A stretch of 45,869 nucleotides of DNA from Zhongshania sp. (lineage in GTDB: Bacteria > Pseudomonadota > Gammaproteobacteria > Pseudomonadales > Spongiibacteraceae). The position numbers and the translations under genes are program-made. The notes under the pieces were generated by a model. The model made no database searches, had not been told where the DNA came from, and saw nothing but the letters and a program-made list of their open reading frames with translations. Below are positions 2,409 through 18,499 of the stretch, piece by piece (the stretch's first letter is position 1; each line of letters opens with the position of its first letter). The stretch is from NCBI GenBank assembly GCA_018066965.1, contig JAGPVP010000034.1:1-45869 (forward strand). The letters run 5' to 3'.

Positions 2409-2744
2409 CTATGCGATGGGAGGACGGTACAGCGAACTACTTACTTGGGTGGGATACTGCGTTAAAGCGTCAAACTTGGGAGCGGGTTTCCCGAACAAGC
2501 CCATGTGAGCGTGTGAGGGCGGCACTACAGACGTAGTCATACCGTGGCAATGGCAGCAATGATGGCAGTCTAGCAAATCACTTTGCTGTTCAACGGCATC
2601 CACGGTGTCAAGCGCGTGGAGGTGTTCGCTAATGGCTTCATGTTGATCGTTGGCTTGATGGAATTGGTGCGCATCCGCTACCGCCGCAAAAGATTGCAGC
2701 AGAATAACGATTGCTAGAAATATGCGTATAGACGCGCTTCGCAC
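2409..2744 (-). CDS. His/Cys-rich secreted protein, CzcI/DUF2946-like
   Basis: 111-aa protein with an N-terminal signal peptide (about residues 1-25, IFLAIVILLQSFAAVADA) followed by a His-rich segment and a dense metal-binding cluster DCHHCCHCHG with Cys60, Cys63, Cys64 and Cys66. It ends in SSSLYRPPIA, almost the same tail as the protein at 15986-16390 in the copper locus, so the two are probably paralogues. The architecture recalls small periplasmic proteins found beside czc/cop metal-efflux genes (CzcI, DUF2946); I am confident of the type, not the metal. The start appears to be GTG at 2744, with only a weak upstream AGG. No efflux pump lies next to it here. A short dyad, CCGTAG-T-CTATGG, at 2777-2789 lies just upstream and could be an operator. 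Confidence 0.65.
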   Translation of the reverse strand: MRSASIRIFLAIVILLQSFAAVADAHQFHQANDQHEAISEHLHALDTVDAVEQQSDLLDCHHCCHCHGMTTSVVPPSHAHMGLFGKPAPKFDALTQYPTQVSSSLYRPPIA

Positions 2745-2975: not shown

Positions 2976-3968
2976 ATGAAACAGCGCAGCAACCCGAACT
3001 TTCCCACTGAAAATGAAGATCAAGCCCTTTTAAGCGCGATACAAGACCTGCCAGTTAGACCAATATTCATTATGGGACTGCACCGTTCAGGAACGACATT
3101 TTTGTATGACACCGTGGCCAAATCATTTCCCCTCGCCCACTTAAGTCTATACCACCTACTCTATTTTGATCGCCTTCTTAGTAATAAACAGAACGGCACA
3201 GAACAACGCGATAAAAACCTGCTTAACCTCTTTTTTTCTGTGCAAGGTATTAGCGACAGAAACATTGACGGCACCCATATTGACGCCGATGCCGTAGAGG
3301 AATACGGATTTTTATTAAGAAAAAAGACCGGCACATTTAAATTGAACGATAGTAATACCGACTTATTTAAAAATCTATGTCGAAAATTATTAGCTGTTCA
3401 AACTGATAAAAAAGCGGTGTTACTAAAAAATCCTTGGGACACCGGTAATGCCCAAAGAATATTAAAGTACTGTCCCGAGGCGCGTTTTATCTATATCTCC
3501 CGCGAACCCATTGCGGTATTAAATAGCATGTTGAACGCCCTTCTCGCCTATATAGAAGGCCCTCAGGACTATCTTGAAATTCTATTAGATAACGGCAAAG
3601 GTCGCAGCGCGTATCGCACCGGCTACCTTGCCTGGATGGTATTGCGAGGTGTGCGTAAAGTACTTGGCCGCAATATTAGCGCACGCTTAGCGCGTGGTTT
3701 ACTTGCGAAAGATGTCGCCCGCCAAGTTGTAGTTTATCGTAAAGAGATTGCAGCATTACCTTGTGATCGGGCAATAGAAATTGACTACACAAGTTTAGTA
3801 GCCGACCCCGTCGCAACAATGCAAAAACTACAGGGGTTGCTCGACTTGACGGTAATCAACAATGCCCCGAGCAATGAGCTTAAGCAGCGGACTCAGTTGA
3901 ATCCTGTATTGCAAGGTTACGAACAAGCATTGCAACATTTAATCGATACACACGACGGAAGTTCTTAG
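2976..3968 (+). CDS. Sulfotransferase family protein (PAPS-dependent type)
   Basis: 330-aa protein predicted to transfer sulfate from PAPS to a hydroxyl or amino acceptor. The 5'-phosphosulfate-binding loop is clear: IMGLHRSGTTFLY with Arg37, Ser38, Gly39, Thr40 and Thr41. The 3'-phosphate site also fits, FIYISREPIAVLNS, where Arg176 and Ser184 have the eight-residue spacing seen in the family. No signal peptide or membrane segment is visible, so it should be cytosolic. It lies 561 bases upstream of the NRPS gene on the same strand, which makes sulfation of the NRPS-derived product a reasonable inference, but the gap means it may have its own promoter and substrate. Family membership is solid; the acceptor is unknown. 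Confidence 0.75.
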   Translation: MKQRSNPNFPTENEDQALLSAIQDLPVRPIFIMGLHRSGTTFLYDTVAKSFPLAHLSLYHLLYFDRLLSNKQNGTEQRDKNLLNLFFSVQGISDRNIDGTHIDADAVEEYGFLLRKKTGTFKLNDSNTDLFKNLCRKLLAVQTDKKAVLLKNPWDTGNAQRILKYCPEARFIYISREPIAVLNSMLNALLAYIEGPQDYLEILLDNGKGRSAYRTGYLAWMVLRGVRKVLGRNISARLARGLLAKDVARQVVVYRKEIAALPCDRAIEIDYTSLVADPVATMQKLQGLLDLTVINNAPSNELKQRTQLNPVLQGYEQALQHLIDTHDGSS

Positions 3969-4529
3969 CATCCCGCCGACCCGTTGCTTAGCTTGGAGCA
4001 TCACCAAGATACGCGACGGCGCTTCACCCCTCCAACTAATTTACGACGTACTAGTTGTTATTGCGCTGGCTTATATGCTCGCCTGTAGAAACGTCCAAGA
4101 GTCTATTGATGCCCCACTGAAATGCCGCCATATTTCATCTACGACACACAGCCACTACTGCACACATATAAAATATGAGCACTTCACATATCTATATATA
4201 TGTGAAATACCGGCTAAAATTACGGATTTCTATGACACTAATTTCTTTTGATGAGCACTATGTCACACTGTAGTGTAGGTATAAATACGTATTATGCTTC
4301 CGCAGCCAACAGCAGAATAGCGCAAGATTAATCAGGACATGCTCGGGCTGTAAGCCTATTTTTATGTTGCCAGCTTATGCAGCCCAAAAATAGTTGCGCT
4401 CTAAAGAAGTGCAAAAACCGACTATGTTCGATAACGATTAATCTGCGCCTATCTTGCCTCTGCATATTTTCGGCATGAGTTATTAACTTTTATGCCTTTA
4501 ATTAAATCGTATCTATATCTGCCATCGAG
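3969..4529. other. Long intergenic region before the NRPS gene
   Basis: No convincing gene. It contains a 24-base palindrome at 4183-4206 (listed separately), a smaller dyad ACACT-GT-AGTGT at 4265-4276, and at 4430-4443 the string GATAACGATTAATC, which resembles two imperfect Fur hexamers about 90 bases before the NRPS start. The stretch is AT-rich toward its right end. It probably holds the promoter and regulatory sites of the biosynthetic operon. Confidence 0.5.
4183..4206. promoter_or_regulatory. Perfect palindrome, candidate operator
   Basis: TTCACATAT and ATATGTGAA form 9-bp perfect arms around a six-base centre, about 325 bases upstream of the NRPS start. Size and symmetry suit a dimeric HTH regulator. 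It is not T-tailed, so it is a poor terminator for the upstream sulfotransferase gene. No regulator gene is adjacent, so the binding protein is unknown. Confidence 0.4.
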
Positions 4530-7500
4530 ATGAGTCAAATGACCGAAAGTATCGCAGCAAAATCACGCCCAAAAGCATCGCAACTTGCTGACAATGACCG
4601 ATATCTAGCCATTGATGTGCAGACCTACAAGGAGTCTAAAATCAAGCTGGCGCCGCTGACAGTTAAGCCTATCGTCTCGCCCGACACCCAATTTTTACCC
4701 CTTGCTCAGTCACAACGCGGGCTATGGTTTGGTGAGAAAATCGGCCCTAAAGACGCCATTTATAATATTGCGGAATACTGCGAAATCCTTGGCGACATCG
4801 ATCCGGATATTTTTATTGCCGCGCTGAAGCAAATAACCCAAGAAGCGGAAACCACCCGCGTCGAACTCCACGACACCGAAGATGGCCCCAAACAAATCAT
4901 ACTTGATAGCTATAAGGGTGAATTCCCTTTTGTTGATATGAGCGATGAAGTTGAGCCCCGTGCAGCAGCCGAAGCGTGGATGATGAATGAGCTAAGCGCG
5001 CCTATGGACCTAGCCTGTGATCCGTTATGGTTTTGCGCATTATTCAAAATTAACGATGCATGTTTTTTGTGGTATCAGCGTAGCCATCATGTCGTTCTCG
5101 ACGGATTTGGGGCGGGTATTATCTCGCGGCGCTGCGCAGATATTTATAATGCCTTACTTGAAGGACGCGACATTGGTCCAAGTCCATTTTTACCACTGCG
5201 CGATCAACTACAACAAGAAGCTAATTACCGACAATCAAGCCGCTATGAACGCGACCGTAGTTACTGGCTAGCGCAACTTCAATCTCTGCCAGACCCCGTC
5301 TCCCTGACTCGTCATAACGCTATTCGCGCCGGCGGCTTGCGCAGAAGTACGGCTCGCCTCTCCCAACACTCTAGTAGAACATTGCGACAATTTGGCAAAG
5401 ATGCCGGTGCAAGTTTGCCCCAAGTGCTTATCGGCTTATTTGCTGCTTATATTTATCGAATGACGGGCGCAGACGATTTGGTATTTGGTATGCCAGTTAC
5501 CGCACGCGCCAACCGCGATATGCGCAGCATCCCGTCTATGATGGCCAATGCGGTTTCTATTCGCTTGGCAATGCAGCCCGATCTAAATTTGACTAGCTTG
5601 ATTGCGCAAGTGTCAAAAGTAGTTCGCCAATCCTTGCGTCATCAGCAATTTCGTTACGAAGATCTGCGCCGCGAATTAGGTCTGCTTGGCCAAGGCCAAC
5701 AAATTTCGTGGGTGGGTGTGAACATTGAGCCTTTTGACTATGACTTGAAATTTGGCGGCCATCAGTGCCTTGCGCAAAACGTCTGTAACGGTACCGTCGA
5801 AGATTTAACCGTCTTCATTTATGACCGTGGCGACGATGAAGGTCTCCGCATAGACTTAGACGCCAACCCGGCGCTCTACACACAGTTTGATTTAGATGTG
5901 CATAGAGATCGCTTTGTACGCCTTATCAATGCAGTATTAGCAGAGCCGAACAGTGCGATTGGTGAGTTAAATCTACTATCACAAACTGAAAAGCACCAAC
6001 TATTAGATGAGTGGAACCGCACTGATCAAGCACTACCCAATACAAATTTTCCCGCGCTATTCGACGCCCAGGCAAACAAAACCCCAGCTGCAATTGCACT
6101 GTGTAGCGGCGATACATCGATTAACTACCAATCCTTGCAGCGCAGTGTAAATGAGCTGACACAGCGATTAATTGCCAATAATGTTGGTGTTGGCAGCCTA
6201 GTTGCCATCGCCCTCCCTCGCAATGAATTAATGCCTATAGCCTTGTTAGCAATTATGAAAACGGGCGCGGCCTACTTACCCCTTGACCCCGCCGCACCCG
6301 CTGAACGTGTGGCCATGATTTTGGACGAAGGTAAGCCAACACTGATTATTTCAAGCACAGAAATAAGCACAAAATTGTTCAGCAACACCAGCGCAATACT
6401 CAATTTAGACACTGCCGAACTAAATAACTCGGATTCAATACCAGCCTCACAAGCAAACATTAATGCCACTATCGATGGCGATACCAGTGCCTATGTGATC
6501 TACACCTCTGGATCTACAGGGCGCCCGAAAGGCGTTGAAATTAGCCATGCCGGTTTACTGAATTTTCTGCTGGCAATGCAAGACGAATTACAGATTCAGC
6601 CCAGCGATAAATTATTGGCATTAACCACCGTAGCCTTCGATATTGCCGCGCTAGAATTGTATCTGCCGTTAATTGTGGGGGCGCAAGTGGTAATTGCCAG
6701 CCGCGAGATTGCCAAAGATCCATCGGCATTAGCTCAGTTAATTAGCACGCAAAATATTAGTGTTATGCAAGCCACGCCATCGCACTGGCAAGCCCTACTT
6801 ACGGATCATGCTGAGCATTTACACAATGTGCGGCCACTGGTTGGCGGCGAAGCCCTGCCCGCCCAGCTCGCACATAAAATGCGTAAATTAGGGCATCCGA
6901 TTATCAACCTCTACGGCCCGACCGAAACCACAATTTGGTCAACTATTATGCGTTTAGATGGCGATAATTTAGATTCGCCGCCAATTGGCCGCCCCATTAA
7001 AAATACTCAGGTATACGTACTTGACCAAGCTATGCAGCCAGTCCCGCTGGCCGCTATTGGTGAACTTTATATTGGGGGTGCTGGCGTGGCCAAGGGATAT
7101 CTCCATCGCCCTGAGTTAACGGCAGAACGTTTTATTCCTAATCCATTTGGCAGCGGCCGCCTATATAAAACTGGCGACTTAGCACGCTGGCGTTCGGATG
7201 GCGTTCTTGAGTATTTAGGACGCAACGATTTCCAAATAAAAATTCGTGGATTCCGAATTGAGGCAGAAGACGTAGAAGCCAATATTCAACATTGCGACGG
7301 CGTTTCACAGGCCGTGGTCACCCTTCGCGAAGACCCCCGCGGCGAAAAAAAGCTCGTCGCTTATCTGATTCCAAGTATTCTTGAAAATGGCGAATCTGTA
7401 GAGCTTGATACCGCGGTACTACGCAAACGCTTAGAGCAAACACTGCCCGATTATATGATTCCTTCGGTCTTTATTTGCGTCGATGCATTTCCGACCAATG

Positions 7501-8633
7501 TGAATGGCAAGCTCGACCGCAACGCCCTACCCGCACCAAGTTGGCAGTATACGCATGACTATGTGGCTCCGCGCACAGATTTAGAAGCCACGCTGGCTGT
7601 CTTATGGTGTGAGGTGTTTGAACTAGATCGGGTTGGCATTCACGATAGCTTTTTTGATCTTGGCGGAGATTCACTCACCGCCGCCAGAATGGTGTCACGC
7701 CTGCGTGAATTAATGAAACGTGATATTCCCTTAGCCGCAATATTCGAGGCCAATACTATTGCCGAGCTTAGTGAACAGCTCGAGCACCAACAAACATTCG
7801 ATCCGCTCGGCATGATGTTGCCGCTAAAATCTACTGGCACCACCGCGCCGCTGTTCTGCATTCACCCAGTTATTGGCTTAAGCTGGGCCTATAGCGGTTT
7901 AACGCGTTATATAAGCACTGAGCAGAATTTATACGGTGTGCAGGCTAGAGGTTTAGCGACAGAATACCAACACAGCCATGCCGGTAATCTTCCACAAAGT
8001 ATTGGCGAAATGGCGAGTGAATATATTGACCATATCCGTCGTGTTCAACCCGCTGGGCCATATAAATTACTGGGGTGGTCACTAGGTGGATTATTAGCCC
8101 ATGAGATTGCTAGGCGATTAGAGGCCGACGGCGAAGACATCAGCTACCTTGCAGTGCTAGATGCCTACCCGTACGTTCAAGAAGCGCAGGTCGCGAATGA
8201 AGCGCAGCTAGTAAAAAGCGCGCTAACATTTATGGGATTATCTGCAGACTCGCTTCCCAAAGGCTCTGAGAACATGGCGGAACTAACGTCCTTGCTGTGC
8301 CAAGAATACGATATTTACAACCTGCCCTTTGTGAAAGAAATGCAGCAAAGCAACAGTAATATCATTGAGAGCGTTCGCCAAATTATTGAGAATAATCTAA
8401 TTATTTCTCGTAATTTTATCCCCGGAAACATTAAGGCCGATATGCTTTTTATTGCCGCGACCCAAACCGCCGAAGCCGATGTGGGTGACGTGCTACAAAA
8501 CAATGCCGAGGTATGGCGCAATCACGTAGGGCGGCTCAATGTTCACAGCGTGAATTGCCATCATCAAGAGATGTTTGATGCCGACGCATTAGCGCAAATT
8601 GGCCCATTAATCGCTAAAACACTTAGGGTCTAA
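4530..8633 (+). CDS. Single-module NRPS, EntF-like C-A-PCP-TE, predicted glycine
   Basis: 1367-aa nonribosomal peptide synthetase with one complete module. The condensation domain (about 55-480) opens with LPLAQSQRGLWFGEKIG and carries HHVVLDG with His187 and Asp191; it resembles the EntF condensation domain. In the adenylation domain (about 505-1000) YTSGSTGRPKG starts at Tyr658, with NLYGPTETT, YKTGDLARW and NGKLDRN. Specificity positions D704, I705, L708, Q747, L770, G772, L794, I802, W803 and K994 give DILQLGLIWK, the published glycine code. The carrier domain has Ser1048 in LGGDSLT. The C-terminal thioesterase has GWSLGG (Ser1184), Asp1211 and His1345. EntF (1293 aa) loads serine and cyclises through its side chain; glycine has no such group, so release should be by hydrolysis or transfer. 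There are no dihydroxybenzoate genes nearby, so the acyl donor for the condensation domain is unidentified. The downstream PPTase should activate Ser1048. Confidence 0.93.
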   Translation: MSQMTESIAAKSRPKASQLADNDRYLAIDVQTYKESKIKLAPLTVKPIVSPDTQFLPLAQSQRGLWFGEKIGPKDAIYNIAEYCEILGDIDPDIFIAALKQITQEAETTRVELHDTEDGPKQIILDSYKGEFPFVDMSDEVEPRAAAEAWMMNELSAPMDLACDPLWFCALFKINDACFLWYQRSHHVVLDGFGAGIISRRCADIYNALLEGRDIGPSPFLPLRDQLQQEANYRQSSRYERDRSYWLAQLQSLPDPVSLTRHNAIRAGGLRRSTARLSQHSSRTLRQFGKDAGASLPQVLIGLFAAYIYRMTGADDLVFGMPVTARANRDMRSIPSMMANAVSIRLAMQPDLNLTSLIAQVSKVVRQSLRHQQFRYEDLRRELGLLGQGQQISWVGVNIEPFDYDLKFGGHQCLAQNVCNGTVEDLTVFIYDRGDDEGLRIDLDANPALYTQFDLDVHRDRFVRLINAVLAEPNSAIGELNLLSQTEKHQLLDEWNRTDQALPNTNFPALFDAQANKTPAAIALCSGDTSINYQSLQRSVNELTQRLIANNVGVGSLVAIALPRNELMPIALLAIMKTGAAYLPLDPAAPAERVAMILDEGKPTLIISSTEISTKLFSNTSAILNLDTAELNNSDSIPASQANINATIDGDTSAYVIYTSGSTGRPKGVEISHAGLLNFLLAMQDELQIQPSDKLLALTTVAFDIAALELYLPLIVGAQVVIASREIAKDPSALAQLISTQNISVMQATPSHWQALLTDHAEHLHNVRPLVGGEALPAQLAHKMRKLGHPIINLYGPTETTIWSTIMRLDGDNLDSPPIGRPIKNTQVYVLDQAMQPVPLAAIGELYIGGAGVAKGYLHRPELTAERFIPNPFGSGRLYKTGDLARWRSDGVLEYLGRNDFQIKIRGFRIEAEDVEANIQHCDGVSQAVVTLREDPRGEKKLVAYLIPSILENGESVELDTAVLRKRLEQTLPDYMIPSVFICVDAFPTNVNGKLDRNALPAPSWQYTHDYVAPRTDLEATLAVLWCEVFELDRVGIHDSFFDLGGDSLTAARMVSRLRELMKRDIPLAAIFEANTIAELSEQLEHQQTFDPLGMMLPLKSTGTTAPLFCIHPVIGLSWAYSGLTRYISTEQNLYGVQARGLATEYQHSHAGNLPQSIGEMASEYIDHIRRVQPAGPYKLLGWSLGGLLAHEIARRLEADGEDISYLAVLDAYPYVQEAQVANEAQLVKSALTFMGLSADSLPKGSENMAELTSLLCQEYDIYNLPFVKEMQQSNSNIIESVRQIIENNLIISRNFIPGNIKADMLFIAATQTAEADVGDVLQNNAEVWRNHVGRLNVHSVNCHHQEMFDADALAQIGPLIAKTLRV

Positions 8634-8681
8634 TGTGTTCATTTCAGTCCCGCTGCTGCGCGACGACTAAATAGGTTAGCA

Positions 8682-10028
8682 ATGAATATCACAATATTTA
8701 GCATTGGCACCCAAGGTGATGTGCGCCCCTTTATTGCCCTTGGCTTGGGTTTGCAAGCCGCTGGGCACAAGGTATGCATTGCCAGTGGCAAAACCTGCGA
8801 AGCACTGGTGGTAAGTCACGGCCTTGCCTATTCACCACTAACTGCGGATTTTCTGGAAGTAATGGCAAAAGATCCCCGCGCACTTCAGCGCGGGCTAAAT
8901 CCATTAGCATTAATGAATACCGCGCGCCGTCACCTTAAAGATATGTCGCAACATTGGGCCACCGAAGGCATCGCCGCGGCCCAAGGCGCCGACCTATTAT
9001 TAGGCAACGGAATGATGGCTGTGCTGGCGAACTCCCTTGGTGAAGCACTAAATATTCCCATGGTAGAAACACATTTACAGCCGGTCACACCCTGCCCCGA
9101 TATTCCGCCAATGATGCTAGCCCCGCCGGCAAAGCCTCGTAACGGTCTTATCAATGAAATGCTTTACCATGTATTACGCGGAATCACTTGGCGTATGCTT
9201 AGCGCCGCTTACGGGCCAGTACGCAAATCCCTAAACTTACCGCCATTGCCATGGTATGGGCCGTACTATCGCCAAAAAAAGCAAGATCGCAGAATTTTAT
9301 ACGGCTATAGCCCTGCGCTGCTTGCACCTTCAAAAAGTTGGCCCACCGGCGTGCAGGTCACAGGAAACTGGTTTTTAAATGGTGAATCACATTGGCAGCC
9401 TTCTACGGCTTTAGCGTTGTTTTTAGCACGTGGTGATAAACCTATCTATATTGGTTTTGGAAGCATGTTAAGCGATGACACCGACAATCTCAGCGCCATT
9501 ATTTACGAAGCCTTAGCGCTCAGCGGTCGTCGTGCTGTCATCGCCACTGGCTGGGGCGGCCTTGCGGCGCAGGCTCAAAACAACCCCAATATCTTTGTTA
9601 TAGACGCAGCACCGCACGACTGGCTATTTCCGCAAGTCGCGTTGGCGGTACACCATGGCGGCGCGGGAACCACCGCTGCCACTATTCGTGCGGGTATTCC
9701 CTCGGTTGTGGTGCCCTTCTTTGGCGACCAGCCTTTTTGGGCCTGGCGGTTAGAACAAAGCGGCGTTGCACCTAAACATCTTATACGTAAAACATTGTCG
9801 GCAGAGCCGTTGGCAAAAGCTATTGCAGACGCCAGTACAGGCAAAATGCGCATCGCCGCTGCAGAGCTAGCTCAACACGTAGCCAAGGAAGACGGCGTTA
9901 AAACAGCAATAACGCTGCTTGAGCAATGGGGATTACTTAATAAGGGCCCAGCGCAAAATTACAAAAGCGAAACCGCTATAAATACATCCCATAAAAGTCC
10001 AAGCCCCTCAGCAGTAACCCCTAGTTAA
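8682..10028 (+). CDS. GT1 glycosyltransferase (sterol/lipid glucosyltransferase-like)
   Basis: 448-aa cytosolic or membrane-associated glycosyltransferase with the GT-B fold of family 1. The N-terminal acceptor domain starts IGTQGDVRPFIALG, a hallmark of sterol- and lipid-type UDP-sugar transferases. The C-terminal donor domain has VHHGGAGTT (His324, Gly326, Gly327) and PFFGDQPFWA (Asp349, Gln350), which contact the nucleotide sugar. There is no signal peptide. The tail after about residue 425 is polar and Ser/Pro-rich and probably unstructured. The gene starts 48 bases after the NRPS stop, behind AGG, and is followed at once by the PPTase gene, so the three form an operon. The natural inference is that it glycosylates the NRPS product or a lipid carrying it; donor sugar and acceptor cannot be read from the sequence. 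Confidence 0.85.
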   Translation: MNITIFSIGTQGDVRPFIALGLGLQAAGHKVCIASGKTCEALVVSHGLAYSPLTADFLEVMAKDPRALQRGLNPLALMNTARRHLKDMSQHWATEGIAAAQGADLLLGNGMMAVLANSLGEALNIPMVETHLQPVTPCPDIPPMMLAPPAKPRNGLINEMLYHVLRGITWRMLSAAYGPVRKSLNLPPLPWYGPYYRQKKQDRRILYGYSPALLAPSKSWPTGVQVTGNWFLNGESHWQPSTALALFLARGDKPIYIGFGSMLSDDTDNLSAIIYEALALSGRRAVIATGWGGLAAQAQNNPNIFVIDAAPHDWLFPQVALAVHHGGAGTTAATIRAGIPSVVVPFFGDQPFWAWRLEQSGVAPKHLIRKTLSAEPLAKAIADASTGKMRIAAAELAQHVAKEDGVKTAITLLEQWGLLNKGPAQNYKSETAINTSHKSPSPSAVTPS

Positions 10029-10048
10029 ATGCGGCTTTGCTAAGTGTG

Positions 10049-10765
10049 ATGTCGGCATTTTCCCAATTTATTACAAGGGTAGACAATCTTTCGCTCCGCG
10101 CCTTTAGTGGCGTGGGCATACATTGTCGCTTTGACGAGACCCGCTATTCTGAGTTACTTTTTCCCGCTTACGAAATAGAACTTCCTGCTGTACTAGCTGC
10201 TGCAAGCAATACTCGTAAAGCCGAATTTCTCGCCGGCCGTGTTGCAGCCAAATATGCTTTAACTGAGTTGGGTTTGATGCCTGACACTATCGGCATCGGC
10301 AAGCATCGCAATCCGCTGTGGCCCCATTCGGTACTGGGTTCAATCAGTCACCATCGCGGTAATGTCTTTTGTTTAATGATGCGTCGCCCCGTCACCGGTG
10401 TACTGAATATTGCGCTTGGCATTGACGTCGAATCAATGATGTCGCTTGATGATGCTATGAGGCTCGGCGCTAGTGTTTGTTCAGCTGACGAGCGCAGGCT
10501 AGCAGCCCAACATTTCTCTGACCAAACCTTAAGTCTAACGCTCATATTTTCTGCTAAGGAAGCTTTATTTAAAGCACTTTACCCGCTTATCGGCAGTTAT
10601 TTTGATTTTCTCGATGTGCGAGTATCGGGAATTAATATTCCACGCAAGGAGCTACAACTGACCTTAAATCGGGATCTATCTTCATGTCTATTAAGGGGGC
10701 AAACTATGACTGCACATTGGCGAGAAACGCCTAAATCGGTAATGACTTGGGTGCATCCGAACTAA
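10049..10765 (+). CDS. 4'-Phosphopantetheinyl transferase, EntD type
   Basis: 238-aa enzyme that transfers the phosphopantetheine arm of coenzyme A to a serine of carrier domains. Family motifs are present: GSISHH, GIDVES with the metal-binding Asp126 and Glu128, and FSAKEALFKALYP with Lys170 and Glu171. The length suits the EntD group rather than AcpS. The first plausible start is ATG at 10049, twenty bases after the glycosyltransferase stop; a TTG twelve bases earlier is possible but less likely. Its position at the end of the NRPS-glycosyltransferase operon makes NRPS Ser1048 the likely substrate, so the locus carries its own activation enzyme. Confidence 0.9.
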   Translation: MSAFSQFITRVDNLSLRAFSGVGIHCRFDETRYSELLFPAYEIELPAVLAAASNTRKAEFLAGRVAAKYALTELGLMPDTIGIGKHRNPLWPHSVLGSISHHRGNVFCLMMRRPVTGVLNIALGIDVESMMSLDDAMRLGASVCSADERRLAAQHFSDQTLSLTLIFSAKEALFKALYPLIGSYFDFLDVRVSGINIPRKELQLTLNRDLSSCLLRGQTMTAHWRETPKSVMTWVHPN

Positions 10766-10918
10766 GCTTTAATGCATAAACTCAAAGAATCCTATCGATT
10801 TGTCGTCACACAGTTAATCTCTTTGCGTTGCTGAATATCACAAATCACTTTTCTACCCGCCTTAAAGCGCTTACCCTCATGCTTAAGGAAAAGCCATCCT
10901 TCTAACGTGGGATTAACT

Positions 10919-11839
10919 ATGCATGACCACCATCATCACCACAGCGCCTCGGAACGAATCGGCTGGGCTTTTGCGCTGAATTTTTGCTTTACCATTATCG
11001 AATTCATTGGCGGTTGGTTGACCAACAGCACTGCGATTATGGCTGACGCGGTTCATGACCTTGGCGACTGCCTGGCGATTGGCATGGCATGGTGGCTAAA
11101 TAAATTGGGCGCCAAAGAAGCAGATGCCCGCTTCAGCTATGGATTTAGTCGCTTTTCACTATTAGGCGCTTTAATCAATGGTGTGATTTTGGTTATCGGT
11201 TCGGCATGGGTTCTTAGCGAAGCCATTCCTCGCCTAGCAGATCCACAGATGCCGGACGCGACCGGCATGCTGGGCTTGGCAATACTAGGTGTAGCGGTTA
11301 ACGGTTATGCCGCGTTTAAGCTCAGTGACGGCAAAACCCTTAATGAGCGTATGCTGAACTGGCACTTACTTGAGGATGTTTTGGGCTGGGTCGCGATTCT
11401 ATTAGTGTCGATTGTTTTAATGTTTGTGGAGCTACCCATACTCGACCCACTTTTATCGGTGGGTTTTACACTATTTATTTTGTTTAACGTGGTCAAAAAT
11501 CTTAAGGAAACGCTGCGCCTATTTTTACAAGCGACCCCTGACCATGCACTGCGCGAAGAGCTTAAGGAAAAGCTATCGGCTATTGATCATGTCAGCGATA
11601 TTCATCATCTTCATTTATGGTCACTCGACGGCGAGCAGCATGTGCTCACCGCGCATCTGCTATTAAAGCAAGACTATGCGCAAGCAGAATTAGTTCGCTT
11701 AAAATCGATTATTGCCGAGACCATGCAAAACTATCCCCTGAGCCATACGACAATAGAATTTGAATTTCCAGATGAGTCCTGTCGCGATGACGCGGCCTCC
11801 AGCAACTCAAGTAGTGTGACGCCACACCACCACCATTGA
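10919..11839 (+). CDS. Cation diffusion facilitator (Zn/Co/Cd exporter, CzcD/ZitB-like)
   Basis: 306-aa inner-membrane cation/proton antiporter of the CDF family. It has six predicted membrane segments, with the metal-site residues in TM2 (ADAVHDLGD) and in TM5 (HLLEDVLGWVAIL), and a C-terminal cytosolic domain that includes DHVSDIHHLHLWSLDGEQHVLTAHL. Both ends are His-rich: a HDHHHHH run at the N-terminus and HHHH at the last residues, probably metal-sensing or buffering tails. The ATG at 10919 is chosen because GGGA lies at a proper distance; a GTG twelve bases upstream is an alternative. It stands between the NRPS operon and the copper genes. Zinc is the most frequent substrate of this subgroup; the metal here is inferred. 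Confidence 0.9.
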   Translation: MHDHHHHHSASERIGWAFALNFCFTIIEFIGGWLTNSTAIMADAVHDLGDCLAIGMAWWLNKLGAKEADARFSYGFSRFSLLGALINGVILVIGSAWVLSEAIPRLADPQMPDATGMLGLAILGVAVNGYAAFKLSDGKTLNERMLNWHLLEDVLGWVAILLVSIVLMFVELPILDPLLSVGFTLFILFNVVKNLKETLRLFLQATPDHALREELKEKLSAIDHVSDIHHLHLWSLDGEQHVLTAHLLLKQDYAQAELVRLKSIIAETMQNYPLSHTTIEFEFPDESCRDDAASSNSSSVTPHHHH

Positions 11840-11933
11840 TTTATTAAGCGCCATTCAGCATGCCGATTCTATTTCAGCTGCCGCTAAACATACTAGCATC
11901 AGCTATAAAACCGCCATGTTAATGAGTGAGTAA
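11820..11933 (+). pseudogene. Truncated ModE-like helix-turn-helix fragment
   Basis: After a TGA at 11817-11819 a 37-codon frame runs to a TAA at 11931-11933. Its centre reads IDLLSAIQHADSISAAAKHT followed by SISYKTAML, closely matching the N-terminal winged-helix domain of the molybdate regulator ModE (pattern LLxAIxxxGSISAAAxxxGxSYKxAW). There is no ATG or GTG at the front, the frame overlaps the CDF gene end by 20 bases, and nothing of the molybdate-binding domains follows. It is therefore a relic, not a working gene. It faces the orphan modA gene, as if a modE-modA unit had been rearranged and eroded. Confidence 0.6.
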
Positions 11934-11941
11934 CTAAATAT

Positions 11942-12700
11942 TTATTCTAGGATTTGATATCCATAAGATAGGATGATTTTCTGCGCTTTAACGCCTTTTA
12001 AAAACGCCATAAACTCTTTCGCGGCGGTATTATCTTCTGCCTTCTTGAGTAAAACCGCATCTTGCTTTATGGCGCGGTAAAGATTTGTGGGTACTCGCCA
12101 GGCTGAGCCACTGCTAATCTGGCCATCTTTCATAATTTGTGACAAGGCTACAAAGCCCATATCTGCATTGCCGGTACTAACAAACTGGTAGGTTTGGGCA
12201 ATATTCTCGCCTGTCACTAATGAATTACGTATTGATTCTTCTAAGTTTAAATGCCGTAACACGTCCATCGCAGCAACGCCGTAAGGTGCGAGCATGGGGT
12301 TGGCAATCGCTAACTTATTAAATTTTCCGGTTCTTAATATATTGCTCTGTGCATCGATCAAATTGGGATTTGGCGACCACAGCGCCAAGGTGCCCACCGC
12401 ATACGTCATTTGGCTTCCTGCAACTACAAATCCCGCTTTATCTAACGCGCTTGGCTTAGTTTGATCTGCTGACAGGAATATTTGGAACGGCGCGCCGTGG
12501 CTTATCTGAGCGAAAAATTTACCAGAAGAACCAAAAGACAAATTCAAGGTATGGCCAGAGGTTTTCTCAAACTCGGCACTAATTTGACGCATTGGTGCAG
12601 TGAAGTTTGAGGCCACTGCAACGTTTAGCTGCTCCGCAAAACTTAGTTGAGCCATACATAAAAAGAACAAGCTAGGGATGAGTCGACGATAAAAAATCAT
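11942..12700 (-). CDS. modA: Molybdate-type ABC transporter substrate-binding protein ModA
   Basis: 252-aa periplasmic oxyanion-binding protein. A signal peptide (LIPSLFFLCMAQLSFA) precedes the mature start EQLNVAVASNFTAPM, and the family features LSFGSSGKFFAQISHGAPFQIFLSAD, IANPMLAPYGVAAMDVL and GNADMGFVALSQI follow in order. ModA normally delivers molybdate or tungstate to the ModBC permease, but no modB or modC is present; the downstream side holds only the ModE-like relic. It must therefore work with a permease encoded elsewhere, or is left over from a disrupted operon. The ATG at 12700 is preferred because it places the signal peptide at the very N-terminus; a GTG at 12721 would add seven residues. 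Confidence 0.85.
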   Translation of the reverse strand: MIFYRRLIPSLFFLCMAQLSFAEQLNVAVASNFTAPMRQISAEFEKTSGHTLNLSFGSSGKFFAQISHGAPFQIFLSADQTKPSALDKAGFVVAGSQMTYAVGTLALWSPNPNLIDAQSNILRTGKFNKLAIANPMLAPYGVAAMDVLRHLNLEESIRNSLVTGENIAQTYQFVSTGNADMGFVALSQIMKDGQISSGSAWRVPTNLYRAIKQDAVLLKKAEDNTAAKEFMAFLKGVKAQKIILSYGYQILE

Positions 12701-13042
12701 AGTTATATTTGCATAGACCACTTAATGTAAAAGAAATTATTCGCCTGACTTGCACAGACCTTTATGTCGTGGAGTATACAAAAATGTTTTCAATACCTAA
12801 CACGAGCTCTTCATACTACACGAGCTAGCCGGTTTATTTATCTACTTACCACCTTAATCAACACCTCACCTAGTCTGCGGTGGAATTTTAAGGCGAGCTG
12901 CCACTAATCTGCAATCGTTTCAATCCCGCCTTAGAAGCCCCAAATGGCACTAAATTCGGCTAACAGTCATTACCTGCCTAGCCAAATTAGTTATACCTTT
13001 TAATGAAATGAGTTCCGGTGTGTTAATAGATTTAGCAAATGC
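12701..13042. other. Divergent intergenic region between modA and copA
   Basis: About 340 bases without a gene, containing the start regions of two divergent units. I found no clear ModE box and no terminator. The only recognisable element is the CueR-type promoter immediately to its right. Confidence 0.5.
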
Positions 13043-13073
13043 TTGACCCTCCCCCCGTTGGAGACATTATCTT
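13043..13073 (+). promoter_or_regulatory. CueR-type copper-responsive promoter of copA
   Basis: A -35 box TTGACC (13043-13048) and a -10 box TATCTT (13068-13073) are separated by exactly 19 bases, the over-long spacing typical of MerR-family activated promoters. The spacer holds the imperfect dyad CCCTCC...GGAG seen in CueR operators of copA genes. It lies 41 bases before the copA ATG, and cueR itself is in the same cluster. Confidence 0.85.
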
Positions 13074-13113
13074 TAGATCCATAAGGTGAATACAAACCTG
13101 TGGAGAAGAATTT

Positions 13114-15516
13114 ATGGCAAGTCCTACGGAGATTGAATTACCCATTAAGGGCATGAGCTGCGCGTCTTGCGTCGGCCGCGTCGAAAAGTCCTTACGCGCA
13201 TTAGACGGCGTTGAATCAGTACAAGTGAATCTGGCCACGGAGTCAGCCTACATTACGGTACAACGGGATATTCCACTTCACACTCTGTGCTCGGCTGTTA
13301 AGCAGTCAGGCTATACCGTTGCCACTGAGGAATTCCAATTAGGCATTAGCGGTATGAGCTGCGCATCTTGCGTTGGGCGTATCGAAAAAGCCATTAACAC
13401 CCTACAGGGCATAGTTGAAGTTACTGTGAATTTAGCGACGGAATCTGCGCATATAATCGCGATAAAAGGTCACATTAATGCCCCCCAACTGATTGCTACC
13501 ATTAACGCATCGGGATACACCGCAAGCTCAGCGGATGATCCTAAACCAGTTAACGACGCTAATAACGACGACATCGGCAAAGAGACTCGACATCTAATTA
13601 TTGCTGCAGTTTTATCCGCTCCCTTGGTGTTAGGGATGATCTTGTCGGCGATAGGCGTAGATCTTATGCCGCCACCATGGCTGCAACTTATACTGGCCAC
13701 CCCAATACAGTTTTGGCTCGGCGCACGCTTCTATCGCGCCGCGTGGTATGCCGTTAAAGCCCATACCGGCAATATGGATTTACTGGTCGCCATCGGTACT
13801 ACCGCGAGTTATGGTTTAAGTGTATTTGAATTACTACGGCAGTATTTGACACCCGCCGCTCACGGTATGGGGCACTTTTATTTTGAGGCTTCTGCTGTTG
13901 TAATTTCGTTGGTGCTTCTGGGTCAATGGCTGGAGCGACGGGCCAAACATCAAACTGCCGCTGCCATACAGGCATTGCAAGCGTTAAGGCCTGCGACCGC
14001 GAGAATCCGCGAAAACAAACAAGACCGAGACGTGGCGATTGCAGAAATACGCCGTGGCGATATTGTGGTGGTAAAACCCGGCGAACAAATTCCCGTCGAC
14101 GGTACTATCATCGAAGGCGATGGCCATTTAGATGAGTCAATGATTACCGGCGAGAATATGCCGGTTCACAAATCAGCTGGGGATTCCGTTGTCGGTGGCG
14201 TTATCAACACCGACGCACTGCTATTAATAGAAACCACGGCAGTGGGAACAGAAACCACGCTAGCGCGTATTATACGGCTGGTGGAAAACGCCCAAGCGGC
14301 AAAAGCCCCAGTGCAGCGCCTCGTCGACAAAGTCAGCATGGTGTTTGTGCCGGTGGTTCTCGCCATCGCCATTGCCACCTTGGTAAGTTGGTATTTGTAT
14401 AACGGCAATATTCAGGAAGCGATTATCAATGCGGTGGCAGTGCTTGTCATCGCCTGCCCCTGCGCGCTGGGTCTTGCCACACCCGCTGCCATCATGACCG
14501 GCACCGGCGTTGCCGCACGCCACGGCATCTTGATCAAAGACGCTCAAGCACTCGAGATTGTCCATAACATCAATACCGTGGTGTTCGATAAAACCGGCAC
14601 TTTAACCGTGGGAAAGCCGAGCTTACGGGAATATATCGCCTGCAATGACGACACCAGCCAACTATTAGGGTTGGCGGCCGCACTCCAACAAGGTAGTGAT
14701 CACCCCTTAGCGCAGGCAGTGCTTAATGAAGCTGAACAACAAAATGTCTCCATCGCTACTGCTCGCGATTCTAAAGCCTTGGCTGGACGTGGCGTGTCAG
14801 CCATAGTGAATGATCAGCGCTTGTTGCTGGGCAACACTCGGCTTATGCAGGAGTCTGGTGTTTCACTCACCTCCTTAGAGGAAAAAGCCGGCGAGTTTGA
14901 ACACCAAGGTAGTACTCTTTCTTGGCTCGCCGAAGCGGGCGATACGCCTCGCCTTATCGGCTTACTGGCTTTTGGCGATGAAATAAAACCGACAGCAAAA
15001 TCTGCTATACAACGCCTGCAAAATGCCGGTATAAAAACAGTGATGATAAGCGGCGACAATCAAGGCAGCGCCCGGGCGGTCGCTGCGACCTTAGGTTTAC
15101 AAGATTATATCGCCAACGTTCTTCCAGATGGCAAAGCAGACGCTATTCGCGAATTACGTAGCACCAACAATATTGTTGCCATGGTAGGTGATGGCATTAA
15201 CGACGCCCCTGCTCTGGCGGCAGCTGACGTTGGTATCGCCATGGCGACTGGCACCGATGTCGCCATGCATACCGCAGGAATAACGCTAATGCGTGGCGAT
15301 CCGGCATTGGTGGCCGATGCGATTGATATCTCTCGGCGCAGCTACCAAAAAATTCGCCAAAATTTGTTTTGGGCCTTTATCTATAATTTGATGGGGATTC
15401 CCTTGGCCGCGAGCGGTTTGCTAAGCCCCGTAGCGGCCGGTGCGGCAATGGCTTTTAGCAGTGTTAGCGTTATTAGCAACGCGCTATTGCTAAAACGCTG
15501 GGAACCCAAGCCGTAA
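13114..15516 (+). CDS. copA: Cu(+)-exporting P1B-type ATPase CopA
   Basis: 800-aa inner-membrane pump that hydrolyses ATP to export Cu(I) from the cytosol. Two N-terminal heavy-metal-associated domains each carry GMSCASC (Cys16/Cys19 and Cys83/Cys86). Eight membrane segments are expected; the transmembrane metal motif CPC is Cys448-Pro-Cys450. The phosphorylated Asp492 is in DKTGT, His530-Pro531 forms the SDHPLA motif of heavy-metal ATPases, and GDGINDAPAL starts at Gly692. GGAG stands eight bases before the ATG. It is the first gene after the CueR promoter and is followed by cueR after 47 bases. This is a typical CopA, not a zinc or cadmium pump, given the CPC motif together with cueR. Confidence 0.96.
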   Translation: MASPTEIELPIKGMSCASCVGRVEKSLRALDGVESVQVNLATESAYITVQRDIPLHTLCSAVKQSGYTVATEEFQLGISGMSCASCVGRIEKAINTLQGIVEVTVNLATESAHIIAIKGHINAPQLIATINASGYTASSADDPKPVNDANNDDIGKETRHLIIAAVLSAPLVLGMILSAIGVDLMPPPWLQLILATPIQFWLGARFYRAAWYAVKAHTGNMDLLVAIGTTASYGLSVFELLRQYLTPAAHGMGHFYFEASAVVISLVLLGQWLERRAKHQTAAAIQALQALRPATARIRENKQDRDVAIAEIRRGDIVVVKPGEQIPVDGTIIEGDGHLDESMITGENMPVHKSAGDSVVGGVINTDALLLIETTAVGTETTLARIIRLVENAQAAKAPVQRLVDKVSMVFVPVVLAIAIATLVSWYLYNGNIQEAIINAVAVLVIACPCALGLATPAAIMTGTGVAARHGILIKDAQALEIVHNINTVVFDKTGTLTVGKPSLREYIACNDDTSQLLGLAAALQQGSDHPLAQAVLNEAEQQNVSIATARDSKALAGRGVSAIVNDQRLLLGNTRLMQESGVSLTSLEEKAGEFEHQGSTLSWLAEAGDTPRLIGLLAFGDEIKPTAKSAIQRLQNAGIKTVMISGDNQGSARAVAATLGLQDYIANVLPDGKADAIRELRSTNNIVAMVGDGINDAPALAAADVGIAMATGTDVAMHTAGITLMRGDPALVADAIDISRRSYQKIRQNLFWAFIYNLMGIPLAASGLLSPVAAGAAMAFSSVSVISNALLLKRWEPKP

Positions 15517-15563
15517 AATGAGTCCAATAATATGGGTAGCTAACAGGCAGTGTTGGAGCAACG

Positions 15564-15974
15564 ATGAATATTGGCCAAGCAGCAAAAGCCAGCGGTATAT
15601 CAGTTAAAATGATTCGGCATTACGAATCATTAGGGCTCATTAAAGAAGCAGCACGTAGCACCGCGGGCTACCGGCTGTATTCCGCTAACGATGTGCACAA
15701 TCTTAGCTTTATAAGAAGTGCGCGCTCACTGGGATTTTCACTGGCTCAAATAGAACAGCTTTTGTCGCTGTGGGCAGACCGAGATCGCGCCAGTGCAGAT
15801 GTAAAAGCGCTCGCTATAAACCATATTGAAGAGTTGGATGATAAAATACGCGAACTGACTACCATGCGAAATTTACTTGCAGAATTGGCCGGAAATTGCC
15901 ATGGTGATGGCCGTGCCGACTGCCCAATTTTATCGGGCTTAGAAAATGATCACGTCTGTAACGCATCAAAATAG
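15564..15974 (+). CDS. cueR: Cu(I)-responsive MerR-family regulator CueR
   Basis: 136-aa transcription activator. The N-terminal winged helix (IGQAAKASGISVKMIRHYE) binds DNA, a long dimerisation helix follows, and the metal loop has Cys112 and Cys120 in CHGDGRADCPIL, the same positions as in E. coli CueR and diagnostic for Cu(I)/Ag(I) rather than Hg or Zn. It should bind the dyad at 13043-13073 and twist it into an active promoter when copper rises. Since it is transcribed in the same direction just after copA, it probably regulates its own production as well. Confidence 0.95.
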   Translation: MNIGQAAKASGISVKMIRHYESLGLIKEAARSTAGYRLYSANDVHNLSFIRSARSLGFSLAQIEQLLSLWADRDRASADVKALAINHIEELDDKIRELTTMRNLLAELAGNCHGDGRADCPILSGLENDHVCNASK

Positions 15975-15985
15975 ATGAACTGAAA

Positions 15986-16390
15986 ATGAGTGCTCGCACT
16001 AGCAAACAAATAGCCTATTGGATTTTGCTGATGCTCTTCAGCAAAATGGCCTTTGCTATTGCGCAGCCATTATCGACAAGCGCCATGCCGTCGACGCATG
16101 AACATCAAACTCAACAACATCAGACCCAACAACACCAAGTAGTCTCGTTATCAATAAAGAGCCATTGCGAATCTAACGATGCCCACGGCGTAGCTCAACA
16201 CTCCGCCGCTAATATGACCCATTGCGATACAAAATGTGATTGCTGTACTGGCCATTGCAATGCACCAGCGCTACTACCGGTGGTTTTCAATAATAGTGAA
16301 AAGCGTCCCCAGCGCGTGCGCAGCCATTCCCTTCTCACTCAGGCATTAACGCTTAGTTCCCCGCTATATCGTCCCCCGATACAAGCCTAA
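15986..16390 (+). CDS. His/Cys-rich secreted protein, CzcI/DUF2946-like
   Basis: 134-aa protein with an N-terminal hydrophobic signal (about residues 8-26, IAYWILLMLFSKMAFAIA), a His/Gln-rich stretch (THEHQTQQHQTQQH) and a Cys cluster CDTKCDCCTGHC (Cys80, 84, 86, 87, 91). The tail SSPLYRPPIQA matches the tail of the protein at 2409-2744. It starts 11 bases after the cueR stop and is clearly in the copper operon, so a periplasmic copper-binding or buffering role is a fair inference; the precise function is unknown. Sequence between the signal, the Cys cluster and the tail is poorly conserved between the two copies. Confidence 0.65.
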   Translation: MSARTSKQIAYWILLMLFSKMAFAIAQPLSTSAMPSTHEHQTQQHQTQQHQVVSLSIKSHCESNDAHGVAQHSAANMTHCDTKCDCCTGHCNAPALLPVVFNNSEKRPQRVRSHSLLTQALTLSSPLYRPPIQA

Positions 16391-16579
16391 ACAGCCTTAT
16401 TACGCCTGTCGATTAAGTGTTTGTGATTAATGTCGCAGCGGCCTTTCATCGGCTACCAAGTGCAACGAGCATGTCTAATATTTATTTCTAGCGTACACAA
16501 CGATGGCAAGGTTTCGCCTTTAAAGCCCATCCGCGCAGATTGCCCGTTACCAAGTAAGCCTTATTTTTAGGACATAACA

Positions 16580-18499
16580 ATGAAAACCACTCCCACATTA
16601 ACGCCAACTTTATCGACGCTCAATCAATCGCGAATATCGCGCCGCCGCTTTGTACAAGGCGCTGCCAGTGCCGGTGCATTAATAGGTTTAGGTGGCGCAC
16701 CACTCAGCTTTGGCGCCAACAGTACGCCCCCAATGAAAACGCCAGAAATACTTAGCGGGCGTCATTTCGAATTAAATATAGGCTATCAAGACGTCAATTT
16801 TACGGGGCGTGACCGTATTGCCACCGCGATTAATGGCAGCGTACCTGGCCCTATTTTGCGCTGGAAAGAAGGCGAAGATATTAGCTTGCGAGTGCATAAC
16901 CACCTCCACCATGACAGTTCTATCCATTGGCACGGCATGATCTTGCCAACCGGTATGGACGGTGTGCCGGGCCTAAGTTTTGCGGGTATAAAACCCGGTG
17001 AATATTTTGACTATGCATTTAAAGTTCAGCAAAACGGCACCTATTGGTATCACAGTCATTCGGGGTTTCAAGAGCAAACAGGTGTCTATGGGGCGATAGT
17101 GATTGAACCCGCCAATCCAGACCCAGTTAGTTACGACCGCGACTACGTAGTGCAACTTTCTGACTGGTCAGATCAAAGCCCAGAAGACATTTATAGCACG
17201 CTCAAAAAGCGTGGCGATTACTATAATTTTAAGCAACGTACTGTCGCTGACCTATGGAATGACATTAAAGCAAACGGTCTAGCGCGTAGTTGGGCTGAGC
17301 GTGGCATGTGGAATGAAATGCGTATGAGCCAGTCGGATATTGCCGATGTTACTGGCGATACCTATACCTATCTCATGAACGGCAATACGCCGGAACAAGG
17401 CTGGAACGCATTATTTAAATCGGGTGAAAGAATCCGTTTGCGATTTATTAATAGCGCGGCGATGACTATTTTTGATGTGCGTATTCCAGGTCTAAAAATG
17501 ACTGTCGTCGCCGCTGATGGACAAAACATCGAGCCAGTTAGTGTGGACGAATTCCGTATTGGCGTAGCAGAAACCTACGACGTTGTAGTTACTCCTAGTG
17601 ACGACAGCGCCTACTGCGTATTTGCACAGAGCATTGACCGTAGCGGCTATTGCCGTGGCAATCTTAGCCCAAATCCACAATGGCAGGCTGACATACCCAA
17701 GATGGATTACGACCCAGTGCTCGGCCATCGTGATATGGGTATGGGCATGGCGGGAATGCACGGCATGCACGATATGTCGTCGATGAACGCCATGACGCCT
17801 AAAAACACTATGAAAGCCATGGATCATAGCGCTCATGATATGTCTGCTATGACAAATCCGAGCATGAACAAGGACCATAGCACCCATAATATGAAAGGCA
17901 TGAATATGCCTGCGACAGATAAACCCGCGCCTGCCGGAATGGGAAGCCAGCGAGATATTGCGCATGAAAAAACTGAATTTGGCCCCCATGTAGATATGCG
18001 CGCAGCAACACCAATGAATGGCTTGGATGATCCCGGCATTGGCTTGCGAGATCATGCACAACGCTACGGTCGCCGGGTGCTGCGCTATGCGGACTTACGG
18101 AACCTCTATAAAACGGAAGATCGCCGTGATCCTAGCAGAGAAATCCAGCTGCATTTAACCGGTAATATGCAACGGTATATGTGGTCCATGGACGGAATTC
18201 CTTTTGCAGATGCCGCGCCGCTGCAGTTCAAATACGGCGAGCGCCTACGCATTGTATTAGTAAACGATTCAATGATGACCCACCCTATTCATATGCATGG
18301 TGTGTGGAGTGAATTAGAAACCGGCGAAGCAATGTATCTTCCTAAAAAGCACACAATCCTAGTTCAACCCGGCTCAAAAATTAGTTACTTAGTGAGTGCA
18401 GATGCAGTGGGCCGCTGGGCCTACCATTGTCACCTGCTTTACCACATGCCGGGGATGATGCGAGAAGTACACATCACCGAAGGCGGGGTGCAGTCATGA
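16580..18499 (+). CDS. pcoA: Multicopper oxidase of copper resistance, PcoA/CopA family
   Basis: 639-aa periplasmic copper oxidase. A twin-arginine signal is present (SRRRFVQGAASAGALIGLGG), so it is exported folded. Copper ligands are in place: HWH at 116-118, HSH at 158-160, HPIHMHG at 568-574 and HCHLLYHMPGM at 616-626. Between domains, residues about 385-455 form a Met/His-rich segment of the MxGM/MDHS type that binds copper in this family. It probably oxidises Cu(I) to less toxic Cu(II). It follows the CzcI-like gene after 189 bases and overlaps the next gene by ATGA, so PcoA and PcoB are translationally coupled. In Pseudomonas this protein is called CopA and should not be confused with the ATPase. 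Confidence 0.95.
   Translation: MKTTPTLTPTLSTLNQSRISRRRFVQGAASAGALIGLGGAPLSFGANSTPPMKTPEILSGRHFELNIGYQDVNFTGRDRIATAINGSVPGPILRWKEGEDISLRVHNHLHHDSSIHWHGMILPTGMDGVPGLSFAGIKPGEYFDYAFKVQQNGTYWYHSHSGFQEQTGVYGAIVIEPANPDPVSYDRDYVVQLSDWSDQSPEDIYSTLKKRGDYYNFKQRTVADLWNDIKANGLARSWAERGMWNEMRMSQSDIADVTGDTYTYLMNGNTPEQGWNALFKSGERIRLRFINSAAMTIFDVRIPGLKMTVVAADGQNIEPVSVDEFRIGVAETYDVVVTPSDDSAYCVFAQSIDRSGYCRGNLSPNPQWQADIPKMDYDPVLGHRDMGMGMAGMHGMHDMSSMNAMTPKNTMKAMDHSAHDMSAMTNPSMNKDHSTHNMKGMNMPATDKPAPAGMGSQRDIAHEKTEFGPHVDMRAATPMNGLDDPGIGLRDHAQRYGRRVLRYADLRNLYKTEDRRDPSREIQLHLTGNMQRYMWSMDGIPFADAAPLQFKYGERLRIVLVNDSMMTHPIHMHGVWSELETGEAMYLPKKHTILVQPGSKISYLVSADAVGRWAYHCHLLYHMPGMMREVHITEGGVQS

Follow-up and report, generated by a model that had tools for sequence, protein, structure and literature searches.

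A putative glycine-glucolipid-type biosynthetic locus with a linked sulfotransferase gene in Zhongshania

Genes of the locus and their predicted activities

We analysed a stretch of 45,869 nucleotides from the genome of Zhongshania sp., family Spongiibacteraceae (the window, by which we mean this whole stretch), which harbours four consecutive genes encoding a sulfotransferase (ST) of the 3′-phosphoadenosine 5′-phosphosulfate (PAPS) type, a nonribosomal peptide synthetase (NRPS), a family-1 glycosyltransferase (GT1; GT below) and a 4′-phosphopantetheinyl transferase (PPTase). The core of NRPS, GT and PPTase is of an already described kind, and the stably linked ST is the new feature. The genes, the gap behind the ST and the condensation (C), adenylation (A), peptidyl carrier protein (PCP) and thioesterase (TE) domains of the NRPS are located as follows.

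2976..3968, plus strand: PAPS-type sulfotransferase (ST), 330 aa; Pfam Sulfotransfer_3
3969..4529, no strand: ST–NRPS gap, 561 bp, from the ends of the open reading frames (ORFs)
4530..8633, plus strand: single-module NRPS C-A-PCP-TE, 1367 aa; Pfam domains
NRPS domains in aa (Pfam): C 54-492, A 511-994, PCP 1021-1083, TE 1107-1350
8682..10028, plus strand: GT1 glycosyltransferase of the sterol-glucosyltransferase type, 448 aa; Pfam
10037..10765, plus strand: EntD-type PPTase, 242 aa; TTG start, ATG 12 bp on

In the ORF list of the window all four frames are intact, and their coordinates match those given beforehand in a preliminary description of the locus, whose four consecutive plus-strand genes agree with both the ORFs and Pfam. 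Measured between ORF ends, the gaps are 561 bp (ST–NRPS), 48 bp (NRPS–GT) and 8 bp (GT–PPTase), so that NRPS, GT and PPTase are tightly spaced, as that description had also noted, and the ST is set apart. Across the 16 loci with an ST that we compared, the ST–NRPS gap ranges from 193 to 656 bp. A separate promoter for the NRPS is probable. The window gap contains a perfect palindrome with 9-bp arms and a 6-bp spacer (4183-4206), which is the sole perfect one there with arms of at least 8 bp and was not seen in the 14 other ST–NRPS gaps examined (the gap of locus L077 was left out). Other palindromes with 8-bp arms are present in four ST–NRPS gaps, and no conserved regulatory palindrome was found.

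The genome, in which the window makes up contig C126, comprises 3.66 Mb in 127 contigs, with a reported completeness of 84% and contamination of 6%. The only condensation domain detected in this genome is that of the locus NRPS. Among 17 Zhongshania genomes, one condensation domain above cut-off was found in 14, two were found in G576, both belonging to loci of the window type, and none in G655 and G672.

Along the NRPS, Pfam places Condensation, AMP-binding, AMP-binding_C, PP-binding and Thioesterase in this order, all above their curated cut-offs, which gives one C-A-PCP-TE module of the same kind as ABO_1784 of Alcanivorax borkumensis and XALc_0364 of Xanthomonas albilineans. The ten-residue code of the A domain, with positions placed by motif anchors, reads DILQLGLIWK. 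This code is identical in 13 of 17 NRPSs (window and loci L064-L079), the other four having one conservative change each, and over all 29 aligned NRPSs we found 22 codes of the DILQLGLIWK kind, six of the DVWH type and one other. The closest solved structure to the A-domain core is 5U89 (131.7 bits), with which it shares all nine code residues covered by the printed alignment, and 4ZXH ranks third (84 bits). A search with the whole A domain puts LgrA higher, with two LgrA A domains summed in that score. We take the code to specify glycine, in line with the match to DhbF, the protein in 5U89; no printed source for the string DILQLGLI was found in the open-access literature searched. As reviewed in PMC11253843, 5U89 is the glycine-activating DhbF, with pocket residues D, Q and W named, and 4ZXH is a glycine-activating C-A-T-TE module. 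The glycine specificity proposed in the preliminary description is thus borne out by both the code and the closest A-domain core.

The best solved relatives of the C domain are the 7C1H/7C1K group (RzmA-Cs, 307 bits) and CDA synthetase I (CdaPS1-C, 206 bits), followed by ObiF1 (190 bits), EntF (159 bits) and Txo2 (106 bits). The 7C1 entries are the RzmA starter C domain, and the CdaPS1 C domain is also described as a lipoinitiation domain (PMC7804268). By similarity ranking rather than a clade test, the window C domain best matches the starter type and is predicted to be N-acylating. The motifs HHVVLDG, LGGDS and GWSLG are present in the window NRPS, and none of the 17 NRPSs of the window and L064-L079 has lost HHxxxDG, the PCP serine motif or GWSxG. 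Because a glycine code, a lipid-starter C domain and intact motifs occur together, the best reading is that the NRPS would N-acylate glycine and release the product.

Two identities, the enterobactin synthetase EntF and the myxochelin synthetase MxcG, were considered for this NRPS and rejected. With EntF and MxcG it shares the C-A-PCP core, and EntF matches it along its whole length, but the scores are far under the curated NCBIfam cut-offs (EntF, 688.6 bits against 2400; MxcG, 748 bits against 2300) and the window code is of the glycine type.

For the GT, EryCIII-like_C, Glyco_transf_28 and UDPGT were all found above cut-off by Pfam. Its best PDB match is the sterol 3-beta-glucosyltransferase 5xvm (E 3.1e-57), in agreement with the sterol/lipid type first proposed for it, followed by GtfA, GtfB and GtfD, which we take to be glycopeptide GTs. 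At 122.9 bits, the best NCBIfam match, the antibiotic-inactivating rifamycin GT Rgt, stays below its cut-off of 800 bits and was rejected as an identity. The PPTase shows 4PPT_N and ACPS above cut-off, and its match to EntD (7bcz, E 1.6e-21) supports the EntD type. A glycosylated N-acyl-glycine fits these predicted activities.

The ST matches PF13469 Sulfotransfer_3 with 72.7 bits against a cut-off of 27. All 16 locus homologues have an unchanged loop MGLHRSGTTFL, presumably the 5′-phosphosulfate loop, and all 16 retain R176 and S184 of the putative 3′-phosphate motif. A sequence search of the PDB gave no significant relative (best E 0.49), and the structure model, built from a 3-row alignment, is poor (mean predicted local distance difference test score 43.7). 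The ST may sulfate the locus product with PAPS as donor.

Linkage across loci and genomes

We compared 37 NRPS loci, namely the window, L004, L005 and L064-L097; L002 and L003, which lie on the same contigs as L064 and L068, and L006, a weak partial match (23%), were left out. The flanks covered ~5-8 kb per side, less at the contig end of L096, and genes beyond them would be missed. The set of 17 loci (window and L064-L079) was in effect picked for having a GT, so that its presence at all 17 carries no weight as evidence. Among the 37 loci, the GT adjoins the NRPS in 19, which comprise this set and two Sphingomonas loci (L004 and L005). An ST was found at 16 of the 19 loci with an adjacent GT and at 0 of the 18 without. 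The PPTase lies beside the GT in 13 loci of the 17-locus set, i.e. in 13 of the 19 NRPS–GT loci, and weaker PPTase matches (30-34%) occur in 5 of the 18 NRPS loci without a GT. Repeated co-occurrence had been proposed beforehand as support for a single pathway, and these counts for ST and PPTase speak for it. The arrangement is not due to chance, as it recurs in related genomes.

The ST-bearing loci lie in at least five genomic contexts, by a conservative count, and in two families. Copper and efflux genes surround the window-like group, other genes are found at L071 and L079 (shared upstream only), and further contexts are those of L072 with L073, L075 and L076 (shared downstream), L077 and L078. 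L077 belongs to G684, a genome of another family (f188), in which the ST lies on the opposite strand; at E 1e-50 a GT was found in none of 21 other f188 genomes searched. Pairwise distances of the four proteins correlate at 0.85-0.94, as expected under joint or plain vertical descent. The genome G576 carries two NRPS–GT loci, L074 and L076, only one of which has ST and PPTase, so that it offers a natural contrast for judging what the ST does.

A sample of the order with 390 genomes from 142 genera was searched with a threshold for each protein (NRPS 1e-180, GT 1e-50, ST 1e-20), which 27, 17 and 20 genomes passed, respectively. NRPS, GT and ST occur together in 16 genomes, namely 15 of the 17 Zhongshania genomes and G684, and the two remaining Zhongshania genomes (G655 and G672) are without all three. 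The NRPS without GT was found in ten genomes, and among six codes read there, four were DVWH and two of the glycine type (G708 and G498). In G489, NRPS and GT lie apart and there is no ST, which counts against co-occurrence. The weight of the linkage evidence is carried by the differing contexts and by G684.

In addition to the PPTase of the locus, the window genome has a second, distant one elsewhere. Among the 13 Zhongshania genomes with an adjacent PPTase, 11 have a further distant one, and G556 and G636 have the adjacent one only. G690 and G596, which are without an adjacent PPTase, have one elsewhere, as do the NRPS-free G655 and G672.

The position of the GT bears on whether it could act on another acceptor, such as a sterol, a hopanoid-like lipid or a xenobiotic like rifamycin, and merely share an operon with an acyl-glycine synthetase. 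At 19 loci it immediately follows the NRPS, the two reading frames overlap at 6 of 17 loci measured, and a GT1 also follows a longer NRPS on a Variovorax plasmid. Together with the low Rgt score, this makes another acceptor highly improbable, even though the best PDB and NCBIfam matches are a sterol and a rifamycin enzyme, respectively, and GTs are also found away from such an NRPS. Besides G489, this is the case in Rhizobium lusitanum (L148), where a GT of 47% identity stands without a matching NRPS within ~8 kb and without an ST beside it. GTs of 32-35% in G692, G478 and G506 (L145-L147) have no adjacent locus-type NRPS and no ST; two fragmentary NRPS matches (27-28%) were found in L145 and none in L146 and L147.

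Related systems and the proposed product

The preliminary description knew of no described pathway for these genes, which is incorrect for the three-gene core. In A. borkumensis SK2, a short C-A-PCP-TE NRPS (ABO_1784), an overlapping GT gene (ABO_1783) and a contiguous PCP-type PPTase (ABO_1782) have been described, and in X. albilineans the pairs XALc_0364/0365 and XALc_1145/1144 each consist of a short C-A-PCP-TE NRPS and an overlapping GT gene, both with a starter C domain (PMC3849588). XALc_0364 has a glycine signature, and a product of glycine, a beta-hydroxy acid and a glycosyl group was predicted for XALc_0364/0365 in the same paper. A. borkumensis makes a glycine-glucolipid, glucose-(3-hydroxyacyl)4-glycine, which was reported to aid attachment of this oil-degrading bacterium to oil droplets; from a trimeric aglycone with glycine, the authors propose an assembly that starts with glycine and ends with glucose (PMC10684412). 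ABO_1783 is a proposed glucolipid GT (PMC10710537, PMC6223728), and the pathway is said not to have been elucidated (PMC10710537). From these reports we infer that the ABO trio would be the source of the glycine-glucolipid.

The window locus has the same NRPS–GT–PPTase set and the same NRPS architecture as ABO_1784/1783/1782, a likeness drawn from the published description. Its predicted product would likewise combine glycine, a sugar and a 3-hydroxyacyl chain. With XALc_0364/0365 it shares the short C-A-PCP-TE module, the glycine-specific A domain and the starter C domain; the XALc GT gene overlaps the NRPS gene, whereas the window has a gap of 48 bp. For X. albilineans, PMC3849588 does not call the PPTase contiguous, and its main text lacks the word sulfotransferase for both organisms, whereas the window has both genes. 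The term "unfamiliar", applied to the cluster in the preliminary description, therefore does not hold for the core and still holds for the linked ST.

Given this resemblance and the linkage of the ST, we consider it probable, at roughly two in three, that the locus is of the glycine-glucolipid biosynthetic type, in a variant that carries an ST. The evidence also favours the chemistry first suggested for it, a glycosylated and possibly sulfated acyl-glycine made with its own PPTase.

A different explanation of the ST would be that it merely adjoins the trio and acts on something else, for instance a polysaccharide of the cell surface, while the trio produces a glycine-glycolipid without sulfate, as Alcanivorax does. 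The large ST–NRPS gap, the opposite strand in G684 and the absence of the ST at L074 fit this explanation, and the published description of the trio is in keeping with it, as the word sulfotransferase is missing from its main text. In the same direction, the window genome holds five further Sulfotransfer_3 genes elsewhere, and homologues of the ST in the family f199 have neighbours of other kinds and no NRPS. We regard this explanation as rather unlikely, since an ST at 16 of 19 NRPS–GT loci against 0 of 18 NRPS loci without a GT, in at least five contexts, and the joint lack of NRPS, GT and ST in 2 of 17 congeners argue against an unrelated substrate.

Several further observations weigh against the sulfotransferase-bearing variant that we prefer. 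L074, one of the two loci in G576, has no ST, and where the ST is present it stands 193-656 bp from the NRPS, on the opposite strand in G684; the PPTase is missing from 4 of the 17 loci of the window set. As 15 of the 16 genomes with the block belong to one genus, the counts are not independent. Glycine-coded NRPSs without an adjacent GT occur at L080, L081 and L088, no ST match was obtained in either of the two Sphingomonas genomes (in a search without a positive control), and an RhlA-like or other acyl-supply gene is absent among the four genes. Four f199 genomes that gave no match for NRPS or GT contain distant ST homologues (41-46%), whose neighbours are lpt, EPSP-synthase-family and his genes in L130 and, judged by shared clusters, in L127, a gene for a VTT-domain protein in L129 and one for a ketoacyl synthase in L128. 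The preliminary description had named NRPS operons that consistently lack GT or ST as evidence against its proposal, and such operons exist in part: two Sphingomonas loci without an ST match and the glycine-coded NRPSs of the family f207 without a GT.

For the preferred variant we propose the following order of steps. The PPTase would charge the PCP with phosphopantetheine, the A domain would load glycine onto it, and the starter-type C domain would acylate the glycine, with a 3-hydroxyacyl group on coenzyme A (CoA) or acyl carrier protein (ACP) as the most likely donor. The TE would then release N-(3-hydroxyacyl)-glycine, which might gain further hydroxyacyl ester units either prior to release or afterwards. 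The GT would glycosylate the free hydroxyl of the acyl chain. Finally, the ST would use PAPS to sulfate a free hydroxyl, for which the sugar is the simplest site, and the result would be an anionic amphiphile of the cell surface. The sequences themselves establish the domain order, the glycine code, the starter-type C domain, the intact motifs and the conserved linkage; the acyl chain, the sugar, the sequence of steps, the sulfation and the surface role are predictions.

It is possible, if still doubtful, that an undescribed class of lipids, a sulfated glycosyl-(3-hydroxyacyl)-glycine, is made by Zhongshania and by a single bacterium from a different family. If so, the ST would add a further negative charge to that of the glycine carboxylate, and the Alcanivorax type of surfactant would have a genetically encoded sulfo-glycolipid branch. 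The locus NRPS would then be the only NRPS kind of the genus because it builds an envelope lipid and not a secreted peptide. A glycine-coded lipid-starter NRPS fixed to a GT in a second marine genus offers a genetic handle on the joining of glycine and sugar to hydroxy fatty acids, and the consistently linked ST predicts a sulfated anionic biosurfactant, of which our limited searches of the open-access literature found no description.

The NRPS–GT pair extends beyond Zhongshania. In Sphingomonas trueperi DSM 7225 (L005) and Sphingomonas sp. NFR04 (L004), the NRPS is ~42% identical with the code DILQLGLIWK and a GT of 43-45% lies directly downstream, as in the window; unlike in the window, no ST or PPTase match lies within the locus. 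The ST looks like a lineage-level addition to this pair. In S. trueperi the pair (L005 6849-14090) is flanked by a luxI-type autoinducer synthase on one side and a luxR-type regulator on the other, which suggests quorum control there. A larger relative was seen on the Variovorax paradoxus plasmid CP063167.1 (L150), where genes for a family-1 GT and an MbtH protein lie behind an NRPS gene of ~7.5 kb. The glucoselipid of Rouxiella is a glucose-bearing fatty-acid lipid, like the product predicted here (PMC12299268). Its operon encodes an acetyltransferase, an acyltransferase and a HAD phosphatase, and the words "peptide synthetase" are absent from PMC12299268, whereas the window uses an NRPS.

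Genes around the locus

Downstream of the PPTase, the window contains a copper-handling region (10907-19203) with genes for a cation efflux protein, a P-type ATPase with two HMA domains, CueR, the multicopper oxidase CopA and CopB.

The adjoining copper-resistance genes bring up another product, a metal-binding acyl-glycine (a metallophore or a copper-related lipid) in place of a surface glycolipid. The EntF-like overall score of the NRPS would suit such a product, as would the f207 relatives of the NRPS, which have the same glycine code and lie near genes for a FecCD permease, a periplasmic binding protein and a cupredoxin. Those f207 loci are without an adjacent GT and without an ST, however, and no aryl-acid or hydroxamate enzyme is present among the four genes. 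Moreover, CzcD, the P-type ATPase and CueR have no homologue in the stretches L071-L079, where the other flanking genes are partly annotated, and for this reason we consider a copper-linked function very unlikely.

L080 and L081 (G708 and G489) each have a glycine-coded NRPS (46%) without an adjacent GT and with a FecCD permease, a periplasmic binding protein, an ABC ATPase and a cupredoxin nearby; these neighbours are annotated in L081 and assigned by shared clusters in L080. They are possibly an acyl-glycine metallophore branch.

Two small Cys/His-rich proteins that look secreted and have the common tail LYRPPI(Q)A are encoded in the window at 2409-2744 (minus strand) and 15986-16390 (plus strand). 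In L064, L066 and L068, a homologue of the 2409-2744 protein is followed by genes for proteins of 355-426, 304-307 and 1036-1041 aa, perhaps an efflux set of the resistance-nodulation-division (RND) type. These three genes are missing in the window, which has instead an integrase gene (224-1456) and a stretch without ORFs of at least 90 aa.

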